Source: an uncultured Bacteroidales bacterium
GTDB taxonomy: Bacteria; Bacteroidota; Bacteroidia; Bacteroidales; UBA4417
Assembly: GCA_903913645.1 (NCBI GenBank)
Contig: CAIWMA010000321.1
Location: 1-34,206, forward strand
Reading direction: 5' to 3'
DNA: 34,206 bases
Below, in pieces: positions 25,843 through 30,653 of this stretch; the first letter of the stretch is position 1, and every line of letters begins with the position of its first letter. Under the pieces are notes generated by a model that ran no database searches, was not told the DNA's origin, and saw only the letters and a list, made by a program, of their open reading frames with translations. The position numbers and the translations under genes were made by a program.

Positions 25843-27669
25843 ATGATACATAAAATATTACTTCTCACATTAGTCCTTTTCGCATTCATTTCGGCTAACG
25901 CCCAGGATGAAAAATCCGATGCGGTATACCAGGATCAGACCAAAGAATACACATTAAACAAAGATGGCAGTTGGGCCTATCATTACAGCCACAAACTACT
26001 TATAAAAACCTATTTCGCATTCCATAACCTGTATGGTGAGGATTTCATAGTGTATGATCCAGCTTTTCAGAAACTGAAAGTAAACCAGTCGGTAACCACT
26101 ATGGCCGATGGGAAGCAGGTGCCTACGCCTGAAAATGCTTATAACGAATTATTGCCCGGCTTTGCTGCCAATGTGCCTGCCTGGAACCGACTGCGCGAAA
26201 TGGTTGTAACCCATACAGCCCTCGAACGAGGAGCTACCATCGATTTCGACTATATGCTCACAACAGCGAAAGGCTATACGCCTGCGCTTATGAGCAACGA
26301 ACAACTCATGATGAACTCGCCGGTTAAGAAACTGACTTTTATTATCCATGTTCCATCGGGATCTTCTTTCAATTATGAACAGTTCAGTGTAAAGTCGAAA
26401 CCTGTAATAGTAAAAGAGGGAAACAAAACCACTTATACCTGGACACTTGCAGATTTACCTGCTGCTTTGCGTGAAGATTTTAGGCCAAAGGAGCAGCAAA
26501 ACAGACCAAGAATCGTGTTTATAGCAAGTGTAAAAGCTGCAGATGCAATAGCTGGTTTTGCTTCGCAGGAAGCGTTTAAATGCGAAATTCCAGCAAGAGT
26601 TAAAGAAGAAACAGCAGGTGCTTTGTCAGGTGTTGACAAACCTTTACTGAAAGCTTTAAAACTCCACGAAAAGGTTGCGAATGATTTGAATACGTGGCAG
26701 GTGCCCTTACTAAACACTGGCTATAAATTGAGGAATGCAGAAGCAATTTGGCAAAGTAATGGTGGCACCGAAGCAGAAAAAGTAGTGTTGCTTACCGGAA
26801 TGCTACGTTCACAGAATATCCAGGCAGAACCGGTTGCAGTTGTGGCTGAAAGATTTTATTCTAAAAAAGTTGCAAGCCCTGCCATAATTGAGCGCTTCCT
26901 TGTTAAAGTGAATATTCAGGGCATGGAACCTATTTTTCTTTCGCCTACTCAGCCTGATTTTCAGGATCTCAGGTATTCACTTTCAGGTAAAAGGATTATT
27001 TCTCTCGTTCCTGGCAAAATCCAGCCTTCTGAAATTATAGGAGAGCCAAAAAACACGCTCTCTCTTACCGGTAACCTCGAACTCACAGAAGATTCAAGCC
27101 TGAAAGGAAAGATGAGCATGGAACTTGGAGGGCGACTGAATCCATGGCTGAAAGTGCAAAAAGACAGCACATACACCTCCACCATGCTTTCGAGTGGATT
27201 TGGAAATGGCAAAATCACAGAAATTATAAAAGGGAAAACTGACATCGATTTATCTTCTTTCAGCTTTCAGGCGACTTCAGGCAACTTCACAACGGAAAAA
27301 GCCGGGCATATTTTCCTGAAACTTCCTTCGTTTCCAAACGGTTCCGATAGCTGGCATATGACCGAGCTGGTCAGCAGCCGCATGGAGCCTCTCGAAATTC
27401 CATTTGCACTAAACGAATCGTATGATCTTTTTATAACCATTCCTGAAGGAATGGCCTTGGTTTCGCCAGCCACTTCATCCAATATAAGTAATGAATTTGG
27501 AACTATTGAAATTTCAATTTCAGCCGAAGGAAGGCAATTACATATTGTTCGGAAGATAAACATCACAAATACCAATGTGCCTGCTGTAAAATATGACACA
27601 TTCCGGTCGATGATAAACACATGGAACAGTAAAAAATACAGGGAAGTTGTTCTGAAGATAGGGAATTAA
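25843..27669 (+). CDS. Secreted DUF3857 protein, degenerate transglutaminase core
   Basis: A 608-residue exported protein. A signal peptide covers residues 1-20 (SANAQ cleavage), then a DUF3857 domain. A transglutaminase-like core follows in which the catalytic positions are lost: AEAIWQSNGGTEAEKVVLLTGMLRSQ lines up with the GVCKDKAGMLITMLRAA segment of the upstream paralogue but has E or A instead of the cysteine. ERFLVKV replaces NHCVTVF, and IFLSPTQ replaces HLLDPTW. It is therefore probably a non-catalytic partner or binding protein of the active upstream paralogue. Its last 23 codons recur about 1 kb downstream as a gene remnant. Confidence 0.85.
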   Translation: MIHKILLLTLVLFAFISANAQDEKSDAVYQDQTKEYTLNKDGSWAYHYSHKLLIKTYFAFHNLYGEDFIVYDPAFQKLKVNQSVTTMADGKQVPTPENAYNELLPGFAANVPAWNRLREMVVTHTALERGATIDFDYMLTTAKGYTPALMSNEQLMMNSPVKKLTFIIHVPSGSSFNYEQFSVKSKPVIVKEGNKTTYTWTLADLPAALREDFRPKEQQNRPRIVFIASVKAADAIAGFASQEAFKCEIPARVKEETAGALSGVDKPLLKALKLHEKVANDLNTWQVPLLNTGYKLRNAEAIWQSNGGTEAEKVVLLTGMLRSQNIQAEPVAVVAERFYSKKVASPAIIERFLVKVNIQGMEPIFLSPTQPDFQDLRYSLSGKRIISLVPGKIQPSEIIGEPKNTLSLTGNLELTEDSSLKGKMSMELGGRLNPWLKVQKDSTYTSTMLSSGFGNGKITEIIKGKTDIDLSSFSFQATSGNFTTEKAGHIFLKLPSFPNGSDSWHMTELVSSRMEPLEIPFALNESYDLFITIPEGMALVSPATSSNISNEFGTIEISISAEGRQLHIVRKINITNTNVPAVKYDTFRSMINTWNSKKYREVVLKIGN

Positions 27670-27810
27670 AATATAGGTCTATTTAGCTGACTCCCAAAGT
27701 CAATTTTGAAAATACGCTTTTCGGAATTACTTGTACTATTTAGAGTTTTGTTTTTCAATATCTTTGTATAACGCCATAGGCAATTTTGTTGTCATAAACA
27801 ACGATTAACA

Positions 27811-27871
27811 CTGAAGGGGTGTAAAGATTATAGATCAGGCATTATCTATTAGAACAAAACCCCGAAGGGGT
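27811..27871 (+). repeat. REP-like palindromes upstream of transposase gene
   Basis: The half copy CTGAAGGGGTG (27811-27821) is followed 51 bases later by a full ACCCCGAAGGGGT (27859-27871), which folds as a 5-bp stem with a GAA loop. The full copy ends nine bases before the transposase start codon, so the hairpin occupies its ribosome-binding region. Confidence 0.8.
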
Positions 27872-27880
27872 GAAATAGCT

Positions 27881-28342
27881 ATGGCAGGAACATTTTCACA
27901 GATTTATATTCATGTGGTGTTTGCAGTCAAAGGAAGAGAAAATCTTTTGGAAAAACCATGGCGGGATGAGGTTTTCAAATATATGGCTGGTATTATCAAA
28001 GGTAAAAACCAGAAACCAATTATTGTAAATGGCGTCTGTGATCATGTTCACTTATTTATCGGACTGAAACCGTCCATGTGTCTGTCTGATCTTGTCAGAG
28101 ATATTAAAAACAATACTACTAATTTTATCAACGATAAAAAGCTGACTAAAAGCAAATTCGCGTGGCAGGAAGGATATGGCGCTTTTTCGTATTCGCATTC
28201 TCAAATGCATAATGTTTATCAATACATATTGAATCAGGAAGAACATCATCTCAGGAAAACTTTCAAAGAGGAATATCTTGATTTTTTAGAAAGATTTGAA
28301 GTTGAACACGATGAGAAATATTTATTTGAATGGTTGGATTAA
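27881..28342 (+). CDS. IS200/REP-associated Y1 transposase (TnpA-REP/RAYT-like)
   Basis: A 153-residue single-strand DNA transposase of the Y1 HUH family. The HUH motif is H55-V-H57 in VCDHVHLFIGL. The catalytic tyrosine is probably Y115 in NVYQYILNQEEHH, and the WQEGYGAFSYSHSQ segment is typical of the stand-alone IS200-like/REP-associated group. The protein is complete. There is no tnpB and there are no classical IS ends. Instead it is framed by ACCCCGAAGGGGT palindromes, forward upstream and reversed downstream, as expected of a RAYT-type gene with its own REP elements. These proteins nick and join hairpin DNA; whether this one still mobilises its repeats is inference. Confidence 0.9.
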   Translation: MAGTFSQIYIHVVFAVKGRENLLEKPWRDEVFKYMAGIIKGKNQKPIIVNGVCDHVHLFIGLKPSMCLSDLVRDIKNNTTNFINDKKLTKSKFAWQEGYGAFSYSHSQMHNVYQYILNQEEHHLRKTFKEEYLDFLERFEVEHDEKYLFEWLD

Positions 28343-28360
28343 TAATGATTCAATTTATTT

Positions 28361-28422
28361 ACCCCTTCGGGGTTACAATCTTTTTATTCTGAATTCCTAT
28401 AATCATTTCATCCCTTCGGGAT
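28361..28422 (-). repeat. REP-like palindromes downstream of transposase gene, reversed
   Basis: ACCCCTTCGGGGT (28361-28373) and ATCCCTTCGGGAT (28410-28422) start 49 bases apart. They carry a TTC loop, meaning the opposite orientation to the upstream copies. The second has C to T in one arm and G to A in the other, so the stem is kept. They lie in the 284-base stretch between the transposase gene and the DUF3857 remnant. Confidence 0.82.
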
Positions 28423-28503
28423 TTGAAGAGAATGAGCCCTTATTACACGTCATTTTCAAATACCAACAATAAAACAGTTTTAATAAAGGGGAAAAATCAA
28501 TTA

Positions 28504-28615
28504 ACCCCAAAAAGGTACAATGTTTATAGACAATAAATCATTAGTCCATCAAACCCCGAAGGGGTGCAATGTTTTTAGAAAAATAGATTCCAATATGGCG
28601 CAACCCCGAAGGGGT
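28504..28615 (+). repeat. REP-like array, three copies about 50 bases apart
   Basis: A decayed copy (ACCCC-AAAAA-GGT, from 28504) is followed by two perfect ACCCCGAAGGGGT copies at 28553-28565 and 28603-28615, spaced 49 and 50 bases. The first two share a downstream tail CAATGTTT-TAGA. Forward orientation. Confidence 0.82.
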
Positions 28616-28626
28616 GACATAAATAA

Positions 28627-28695
28627 TTCCGGTCTATGTTCAATAACTGGAACATTAAAAAATACAGGGAAGTTGTTTTGAAGAAAGGGAATTAA
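28627..28695 (+). pseudogene. C-terminal remnant of a third DUF3857 gene
   Basis: Bases 28627-28696 match 27601-27670, the 3' end of the neighbouring DUF3857 gene, at 61 of 70 positions without gaps. In the same frame the remnant reads FRSM, then NWNIKKYREVVLKKGN and a TAA stop, against NTWNSKKYREVVLKIGN in the intact gene. The similarity begins 11 bases after the last REP-like palindrome, and there is no start codon or upstream part. Its stop codon overlaps the dnaG stop (shared TTAA). Confidence 0.8.
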
Positions 28696-30653
28696 ACAAT
28701 AGTCCTCCCCAATTGCCCGCCATCAATCAGGTTGGCAATGCGTTTGGCATTCATAAACTGTTTCTGCAGATCGATGGACACATCATCCGATTCGGCCGTT
28801 TTTATCTTTTCTAGCAATTCTTTCAGGATCTGACGAACCCGTTTCGATTTAAAGGATAATATTGAGTTCGGAATCAGGAAATCAAGTACTTCATGTTCCT
28901 GGAGCAGGCGGATTTTGCGCTTTTCCCAGTTTGGGCTGAAGGTGTATTTTGTAGCAATGAGATCAATCACCGGTCCCGAAACAGAATTGTCAGGATGATT
29001 GGTAAGCTTTCGGTAATCTATATCCGGATTGTTTTTAAGTTCAGCTACACAGGTATTAAAAATTTGTTGGTACTGCGCATTGCTGAAGTCAAGTTCATCA
29101 GCTGTAATATCGCTAATGATAAAATTGGCAGCCTTTACTTTATTCTTAACAGGTTCACCAGTTTCAGGATCCGGATAATTTGTTTCTATTTCAACATCGC
29201 CAAAGAGCAACAACTGCCTGATTATCTCACGTTCAATATCATCGGTACTCAGTGCATCGAATGATTCCTGTTGTTGTTCGGCAGGTTCTGGCGCAAATAA
29301 GTTGTCGAGTTCTTCCGCTTCGGTTGGAGTGGACCCTGATTTCTGCGTGAATTTTTTCCGCAGAAGTTTGTTAAGTTCATTCAGGATGGCACGTTCGTCC
29401 ATCTGCATTCGGTCGGCACTTTCCTTAACGTAAGCGAGGCGTGTAAGCTGGTCGGGAATAAGCGAAATGCTTTCGATAAAATCCTTCAGCACTGCAACCC
29501 TTTTCAACGGATCACGGCCGGTTTCGCTTAGTAAAAGGTCAATCTTGAAGTGAATAAAATCCTTGGCATTCTGCTGGATAAACTCCTGCACTTCGACACC
29601 ACGGCGTGTGCGGGCGAATGAATCCGGATCTTCTCCGTCAGGAAACAGAACTACTTTTACGTTCATGCCCTGTTCAAGGATCATGTCAATTCCGCGGAAC
29701 GAAGCTTTAATGCCGGCAGGGTCACCGTCATAAAGAATAGTGATGTTTGGCGTGTACCGTTTTATCAGCCTGATCTGATCTGCTGTCAATGAAGTTCCCG
29801 AAGAGGAAACCACATTCTGCACACCGGCTCGGTACATCGAAATTACATCTGTATACCCTTCTACCAGGAAACACATATCGTTGGCGGCGATGGCATGCTT
29901 GGCAAAAGAAATTCCATAAAGGACCTTGCTCTTGTTATAAATCTCGCTTTCGGGCGAATTGACATATTTCGGCCTGGTTTTATCGGAAGTCATGATACGT
30001 CCGCCGAAGCCAATAACACGACCTGCCTGGCTGTGGATCGGGAACATTACCCTTCCTCGGAAGCGGTCGTAAAGGCGATCATCCTTTTTAATACTCAAGC
30101 CAGATTTCTCAAGCATATCGGCACTAAAGCCATTTTTCAGGGCTTCCTTACTTATAGCGTCCCATACTTCAGGACTATAACCCAGCTGGAATTCACGAAT
30201 GGTTTCGTCACTGAAACTGCGTCCATGGAAATACGATAAGCCGACCGAAAGTCCTTCGTCGGTATTAAAAAGCTGATTTGCAAAAAACTTGGCAGCAAAG
30301 TCAACAATAGCCATCAAACCTTCGCGGGCTGATTTTTCGGCAACCTGTTCGGCGGTTTCGGCTTCTTCCTGAATATCAATATTGTATTTTTTGGCAAGGT
30401 AGCGCAGCGCTTCGGGATAGGTGAATTTTTCATGTTCCATCACAAAATTCACTGAATTGCCTGCTTTTCCACACCCAAAACATTTGTAAATCCCCTTGGT
30501 TGGCGAAACGTGAAACGAAGGAGTACGCTCATTGTGAAAAGGGCATAAACCTGTAAAATTGCCTCCGCGCCGTTTCAGCGCCACGAAATCAGCAACAACT
30601 TCCTCCACTCGGGCGGCATCAAAAATCTGCGAAATAGTATCGTGTGGGATCAA
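28692..30653 (-). CDS. dnaG: DNA primase
   Basis: A 653-residue primase that makes RNA primers at the replication fork. The CHC2 zinc finger is C37, H40, C58, C61 (LCPFHNERTPSF ... YKCFGCG). The catalytic core and TOPRIM fold follow (GRVIGFGGRIM, FLVEGYTDVISMYRAG, ILYDGDPAG). The C-terminal helicase-binding region (from about residue 430) is divergent and rich in D/E, as usual. The only sensible start is TTG at 30653, giving MIPHDTISQIF; no ATG lies nearby, and residues from position 2 match the family. It is convergent with the DUF3857 remnant, overlapping at the stop codons. Confidence 0.96.
   Translation of the reverse strand: MIPHDTISQIFDAARVEEVVADFVALKRRGGNFTGLCPFHNERTPSFHVSPTKGIYKCFGCGKAGNSVNFVMEHEKFTYPEALRYLAKKYNIDIQEEAETAEQVAEKSAREGLMAIVDFAAKFFANQLFNTDEGLSVGLSYFHGRSFSDETIREFQLGYSPEVWDAISKEALKNGFSADMLEKSGLSIKKDDRLYDRFRGRVMFPIHSQAGRVIGFGGRIMTSDKTRPKYVNSPESEIYNKSKVLYGISFAKHAIAANDMCFLVEGYTDVISMYRAGVQNVVSSSGTSLTADQIRLIKRYTPNITILYDGDPAGIKASFRGIDMILEQGMNVKVVLFPDGEDPDSFARTRRGVEVQEFIQQNAKDFIHFKIDLLLSETGRDPLKRVAVLKDFIESISLIPDQLTRLAYVKESADRMQMDERAILNELNKLLRKKFTQKSGSTPTEAEELDNLFAPEPAEQQQESFDALSTDDIEREIIRQLLLFGDVEIETNYPDPETGEPVKNKVKAANFIISDITADELDFSNAQYQQIFNTCVAELKNNPDIDYRKLTNHPDNSVSGPVIDLIATKYTFSPNWEKRKIRLLQEHEVLDFLIPNSILSFKSKRVRQILKELLEKIKTAESDDVSIDLQKQFMNAKRIANLIDGGQLGRTIV

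Follow-up and report, generated by a model that had tools for sequence, protein, structure and literature searches.

In the sections of Quentin et al. 2018 (PMC6006769) that deal with TnpA_Y1 subclass 1.2, these transposases are described as generally without typical terminal hairpins, and the paper's search for repetitive extragenic palindromes (REPs) required stems of 7-20 nt together with a GTAG/GTGG foot. REPs also occur as inverted pairs, the REPINs, and loop positions matter in group 3 REPs, according to the portions of PMC8266576 and PMC3116915 concerned with them. The stretch of DNA analysed here (the window) spans 34,206 nt of a contig of an uncultured Bacteroidales bacterium (CAIWMA010000321.1; contig C321 of host genome G000, 5.71 Mb in 593 contigs). 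It carries a 462-bp gene, tnpA (27881-28342), for a Y1 HUH transposase, set among seven palindromes resembling ACCCCGAAGGGGT (window search, up to 3 mismatches). We consider it likely, with a probability of roughly 0.7, that the H1-H2-tnpA-H2'-H1' arrangement of this locus is a small transposon-like element of an orphan IS200-like transposase of TnpA_Y1 subclass 1.2, and that TnpA acts on the mini-hairpins. Our preferred classification is that of an IS200-like element of subclass 1.2 whose layout resembles a REPtron.

The original prediction, made from the DNA letters, had described seven copies of one hairpin, five good and two decayed, pointing one way before the gene and the other way directly after it. 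Our search returned the same number, quality and orientations, and moved only the start of the array, from 27811 to 27808, where the first copy begins. The array comprises the following features:

27808..27820, plus strand: H1, outer left hairpin, decayed to ACACTGAAGGGGT (2 mismatches)
27821-27833, plus strand: H1 tail, GTAAAGATTATAG, adjoining the outer left hairpin
27859..27871, plus strand: H2, inner left hairpin, ACCCCGAAGGGGT, exact, 51 nt after H1 and 9 nt before the start codon
27881..28342, plus strand: tnpA, Y1 HUH transposase, 153 aa, with motifs DHVH, WQ and YILNQEEHH (Pfam; AF2 model)
28361..28373, minus strand: H2', inner right hairpin, ACCCCGAAGGGGT, exact
28409 down to 28397, minus strand: H1' tail, GAAATGATTATAG, adjoining the outer right hairpin
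28410..28422, minus strand: H1', outer right hairpin, ATCCCGAAGGGAT, 2 mismatches with the palindrome still perfect
28504..28516, plus strand: extra H1-type copy with a broken stem, ACCCCAAAAAGGT (3 mismatches, pairing lost), its tail ACAATGTTTATAGA retained
28553..28565, plus strand: extra hairpin, exact, with the H1-type tail GCAATGTTTTTAGA
28603..28615, plus strand: extra hairpin, exact, with the H2-type tail GACATAA

With the tails considered, the order is H1-H2 > tnpA < H2'-H1', followed by a forward run of H1(broken)-H1-H2. Start-to-start distances are 51 in the upstream pair, 49 in the reversed pair, then 49 and 50. The search gave 15 matches in the window, of which four are exact copies re-read on the opposite strand and four lie elsewhere, versus a mean of 4.47 and a maximum of 10 in 100 shuffles. 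Conservation of the tail is much stronger at H1 than at the other member of each pair. A repeating unit of palindrome plus tail, about 50 bases long, had been proposed; the tail is real and conserved, mainly at H1, and a uniform 50-base repeat is ruled out by the tails, which distinguish H1 from H2. The unit is an inverted pair of unlike pairs, H1-50-H2 > tnpA < H2'-50-H1', and not a 50-mer.

A Pfam Y1_Tnp match (84.3 bits, E 9.4e-24, ending at residue 119) agreed with the stand-alone Y1 transposase of the original prediction, and the NCBIfam model transpos_IS200 (NF033573) scored 65.8 bits, above its cutoff of 55. The motifs DHVH, WQ and YILNQEEHH agree with the definition of TnpA_Y1 subclass 1.2 in the corresponding part of PMC6006769, and across related loci Y---Q--HH was found in 130/137 and Y---NP in 0/137. 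The AlphaFold model (AF2; mean predicted local distance difference test score, pLDDT, 91.8) contains a C-terminal extension, with a helix at 128-138 after the Y helix, and a PDB fold search gave 30 hits at E<=0.001, led by ISDra2 and IS608 TnpA, with the REP-associated tyrosine transposase (RAYT) 4er8 at rank 30 (8.9e-5). By its sequence, then, TnpA is classed as IS200-like class 1, subclass 1.2. In the host genome tnpA is single copy and its other homologue is just 29% identical. That genome also encodes, among the loci L008-L010 (contigs C137, C140 and C216), a second subclass-1.2-type protein on C137 (YIKNQKEHH) and two longer proteins, whose class-2-like motifs read YIHNNP (C216) and SIHNNP (C140), the latter having no Tyr at that place.

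To place the array in context, we examined 110 loci, 30 of them taken one per genome from 30 genomes and 80 being the best 80 of 570 ranked by likeness to A1. Twenty-seven of 30 further loci brought the set to 137; L186, L187 and L194 were dropped as lying on the same contigs as L043, L012 and L117, judged from the length of the contig and the position on it, and a check for overlap between genomes by identical protein plus 60 nt found none. In 300-nt windows, perfect 5-bp hairpins were present upstream in 68/106 and downstream in 73/105, versus 31/454 at a distance of 1.1-2 kb and 14/530 and 20/525 after shuffling. A strict rule, set after a first look at the loci, required a C(GNA/GNNA)G loop within 130-nt windows. 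It found hairpins upstream on the gene strand in 71/135 loci versus 8/135 on the other strand, downstream on the other strand in 81/133 versus 9/133 on the gene strand, and in 9/1772 far windows. The hairpins thus have a strand polarity that reverses across the gene. Before the open reading frame (ORF) they start most often at -40 to -21 and -90 to -71, and beyond its end at 0-29 and 50-79. Same-strand spacing peaks at 46-53 nt, so that the spacing of about 50 bases noted for the window recurs in relatives. Among 131 loci with both flanks, 96 had at least one hairpin on the expected strand, 52 had them on both sides and 16 had all four. A tail motif, ATNATT[A/G]TAG, follows H1 in 57/78 cases and H2 in 12/92; 5' of the stem, 78 H1 and 92 H2 show one conserved A and no GTAG/GTGG foot. 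The hairpin array is a family trait of related loci.

Other arrangements were seen in the same material. The branch of subclass 1.2 at 30-41% identity (L235-L254) carries other hairpin sets such as GCCCTGAAAGGGC, mirror-placed in L235, L239 and L251, and a few of its loci show no hairpins. Upstream of tnpA in L035, eight ACCGCGTAGCGGT hairpins are set 26 bp apart, which halves the usual distance. L030 and L031 contain GCCCC-type hairpins in tandem, 46-50 bp apart except at a few wider gaps, a local amplification.

A palindrome-independent test was made by anchoring on the tail motif [AT]TT[AG]TAG within 110 nt of tnpA on the expected strand, which gave 111 sites in 72/137 loci versus 30 on the other strand. 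A perfect 5-bp palindrome stood at the fixed offset in 82/111 of these sites, and in 0-2/111 at ten shifted offsets. These palindromes comprise 18 stems, with at least two Watson-Crick pair types at every position (near-copies included); pairing is therefore kept while the letters change. Chance palindromes are ruled out by the shuffles, the spacing peak, the strand polarity and this tail-anchored test. A TnpA protein tree had been proposed as a check; on a quick tree of the 137 TnpAs (18/134 inner branches starred), 84 rows bearing nine stem labels required 23 changes, versus a shuffled mean of 42.7 with 0/200 shuffles as low. Stem type clusters on the TnpA tree, near-copies contributing to the clustering.

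We then considered how the palindrome is distributed among genomes. In the host genome the exact core occurs six times, four of them here, and the other two have neither tail nor partner. The array being confined to one site, there is no dispersed REP population in this genome of the kind the original prediction implied. The 13-mer is found in 20/99 genomes, comprising relatives and the host genome itself. Across the phylum (394 other genomes, with a subclass-1.2 hit defined by E<=1e-40), palindrome and transposase co-occurred increasingly with copy number: hits were present in 27/53 genomes with at least one copy versus 88/341 of the rest (one-sided Fisher p 3e-4), in 15/21 versus 100/373 at two or more (p 5e-5), in 10/11 versus 105/383 at three or more (p 3e-5) and in 7/7 versus 108/387 at five or more (p 2e-4). 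The refuting condition set with the original prediction thus gave a mixed result: co-occurrence is strong at three copies and above, and at one copy or more 26/53 genomes contain the palindrome without such a hit. Single copies are near chance, because a backward control pattern occurred in 21/395 genomes and a single palindrome in 32. In a hand-picked set of mostly TnpA-positive genomes, which gives no rate, 21/58 palindrome sites had a listed tnpA hit no more than 600 bp away. On mobile replicons, TnpA matches were found in 4/72,556 plasmid and 1/50,697 phage records, all below 60% identity; one lies on a 602-kb Bernardetia plasmid (NZ_CP147018.1:53960-54418; TnpA 52% identical).

One relative, G050, contains numerous copies of the palindrome. 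A 266-bp query matched at least 46 places in it, 41 of them at E<=2.6e-47 (40/196 candidates scored), and 30 aligned rows (L155-L184) represent 29 distinct copies, L162 and L164 holding the same one. Most rows read H1-52-H2-51-H2'-52-H1' without a gene, with an outer hairpin resembling ATCCCGAAGGGAT as in the window, and some are without the H2'-H1' stretch. Gene-less units of H1-H2-H2'-H1' anatomy have spread in G050. Four-hairpin units of this kind were seen in no genome but G050, where they lie within longer units of about 300 bp; the ends of these longer units, among the matches listed, read by eye as imperfect inverted repeats (ATACCAAGT...). The two TnpA hits of G050 are 38% and 36% identical, and the former stands amid hairpins with GCCCC/GCCCT stems, one pair from ACCCC, and a different tail.

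The extent of the element was approached through pairs of related loci. Two genomes of the window's genus (L022 and L025) have 672 bp in common at 87%, from -101 to +114 around the ORF, with no match beyond this segment. Among 292 pairs of TnpAs at least 75% identical, 253 were testable and 208 had no other shared flank; in 22 of these 208 the similarity stops close to H1 on one side and to H1' on the other. For some relatives, similarity stops at H1 and H1'. The names of the metagenome-assembled genomes are not taken as a sign of horizontal transfer: L043 and L044 also have surrounding DNA in common, so a binning error is possible for that pair.

Several observations weigh against an element bounded by, and acting through, these hairpins. 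The 22 pairs are a small part of the 208, of which 130 stop at most 40 bp from the ORF. Under the strict rule a hairpin is missing on one or both sides in 79/131 loci. A looser, uncontrolled rule found at least one perfect hairpin in 29 of 35 hairpin-less loci, the differences lying in the loop (ATA, ATC, AGC), a longer stem or an unexpected direction; the upstream hairpins of L050 and L051, with TTC loops, are of this last kind, and 6/35 show nothing under the looser rule either. The host genome is without dispersed copies, hairpin plus tail (up to 3 mismatches) occurring four times, all here, with a reversed control at two, and there is no such hairpin on contig C137, which carries its second subclass-1.2-type protein. 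G050 has 164 palindrome copies and no close TnpA, and another transposase may have spread its units, because they sit within the ~300-bp units with apparent inverted ends. In DNA, GNA loops have an unusual stability; the energy model gives no support for this stability as a computed signal of the strand, since both strands fold at -3.4 kcal/mol and the GNA strand is not favoured.

Three other explanations were weighed against these data. The original prediction was of a Bacteroidota REP/RAYT system, which in its strict form would require a class 2 TnpA_REP. A single-copy gene with inverted hairpins around it, and the dispersed G050 population with the same four-hairpin order, would suit such a system, and the contrast drawn with the layout of gammaproteobacterial bacterial interspersed mosaic elements (BIMEs) is supported. 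The protein, however, has Y---Q--HH rather than Y---NP, and scores 22.5 bits with the NCBIfam RAYT model REP_Tyr_transpos (NF047646), under the cutoff of 80; the hairpins have 5-bp stems and no GTAG foot on their 5' side, the host genome has no dispersed copies, and its class-2-like proteins on C216 and C140 are separate from TnpA. We regard a true REP/RAYT system as very unlikely: RAYT membership is rejected on Y motif, foot, model score and dispersal, and a RAYT-like way of working may apply.

Alternatively, each H1-H2 pair could be a minimal IS200-like unit on one strand, with H1 as left end and H2 as right end, and the inverted pairs could be independent insertions of about 50 nt. The tandem one-strand runs of this period in L030, L031, L045, L059 and L071, and the extra H1-H1-H2 run of the window at 28504-28615, fit this model, which we nevertheless find unlikely, as mirror placement at fixed distances from both gene ends is hard to obtain by independent insertions and the similarity of some relatives spans H1 to H1'. 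A role in RNA, with the hairpins serving as terminators or in mRNA stability or tnpA regulation rather than as TnpA substrates, would account for how closely they hug the gene, H2 lying mostly 21-40 nt before the start codon and H2' mostly 0-29 nt after the stop. It appears very unlikely in view of the 5-bp stems, the conserved tail, the clade-related stems and a loop polarity that flips between the two sides, which a one-strand transcript would not need.

In the transposon-like element that we favour, the most likely target of TnpA binding is single-stranded DNA folded into the 13-nt mini-hairpins. The strand would be recognised by the C(GNA)G loop and the protein's own family by the stem, while the two unlike hairpins 46-53 nt apart would together form one compound end, with H2 as the hairpin facing the gene and the H1 tail ATNATT[A/G]TAG as a candidate cleavage or guide site. 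The two ends are inverted, as are REPs in REPINs, and not on a single strand as in IS200/IS605. We infer binding, cleavage and transposition from related Y1 enzymes as treated in the relevant parts of PMC8266576 and PMC3116915; TnpA may also mobilise tnpA-less copies.

The surroundings of the gene bear on how such an element might insert. The neighbours of tnpA are a DUF3857 gene (25843-27669) on one side and dnaG (28692-30653, minus strand) on the other, and two direct repeats enclose the whole array:

27600..27676, plus strand: left copy of the 77-bp direct repeat, which is imperfect and covers the 3' end of the DUF3857 gene, 85.7% identical to the right copy
28626..28702, plus strand: right copy of the 77-bp imperfect direct repeat, reaching the 3' end of dnaG, 85.7% identical to the left copy

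The tnpA copy of G013 (84% TnpA) occupies the same site, which is common to the host and a species of its genus. G003, G005 and G010 have different DNA between the two flanking genes, and the 73% TnpA homologue of G003 sits on another contig. Aligned to the left copy of G013, the region of the right repeat (28626-28745) is 79% identical in 120 columns that span the stops of both DUF3857 and dnaG. This suggests that the two genes once abutted and that their junction was doubled when the element arrived. The left repeat of G013 also holds dnaG-end sequence, resembling a long target duplication; that genome's own two repeat copies match over 23 bp only. Direct repeats of at least 35 bp, filtered as hairpin-free, flank 12/116 loci versus 2/129 control windows, 12 being an upper count, as by eye some repeats still hold imperfect hairpins (L047, L209). 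At L021, L072, L083, L085, L191, L193 and L210, direct repeats 42-139 bp long lie on either side of the locus, and some of them resemble gene ends. We take flanking duplication at insertion as a lead, not a demonstration. A broader proposal sees subclass 1.2 as an evolutionary experiment of its own between IS200 elements and REPtrons: TnpA would read a compound end made of two unlike mini-hairpins on one strand, the cut would fall near the H1 tail, gene-less H1-H2-H2'-H1' units would spread, and a target duplication of ~75-120 bp upon insertion or replication would keep the flanking genes whole. This proposal is tentative and rather doubtful.

Compared with described systems, the locus resembles subclass 1.2, as characterised in the pertinent section of PMC6006769, in Y---Q--HH, DH[IV]H, WQ, a length of ~150 aa, the C-terminal extension, low copy number and Bacteroidetes hosts. 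It departs from that account in having hairpins, found at 96/131 sampled loci, with stems shorter than the REP search criteria given there and without the foot that these require. The hairpins around subclass 1.2 genes correct that subclass's description and do not exclude the locus from it, because the motifs define the subclass. With REPtrons, as outlined in PMC8266576 and PMC3116915, it shares a transposase gene set between strand-specific hairpins that correspond to the encoded protein, whereas here the protein is class 1, each end has two unlike hairpins with 5-bp stems, a tail 3' of H1 stands instead of the REPtron GTAG 5', and the host genome has no dispersed copies. IS608 and ISDra2 (IS200/IS605, subclass 1.1) provide the closest solved folds, the same protein class and hairpins near the ends; unlike their one-strand end hairpins, the ends here are inverted and doubled, with one gene copy versus several near-identical copies per genome, and the neighbours are the DUF3857 gene and dnaG, not tnpB. 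TnpA_Y1 class 3 is alike in combining a Q-type Y motif with REPtron-like hairpins; the passages on it in PMC6006769 give it a Y----Q motif, a CnGA foot, up to ~600 hairpins per genome, and hosts among Planctomycetes, Acidobacteria and Proteobacteria. Among the Creative Commons-licensed PMC papers listed in our searches, none dealt with subclass 1.2 hairpins.

The 2018 description of subclass 1.2 TnpA gave no DNA substrate; many members now have a candidate one, consisting of two mini-hairpins, a tail and a strand. The natural stem variants, each beside its own TnpA, suit tests of specificity, and a class-1 protein with a REPtron-like layout bears on the origin of REPs from insertion sequences. 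The hairpin layout suggests which DNA this little-studied subclass acts on.
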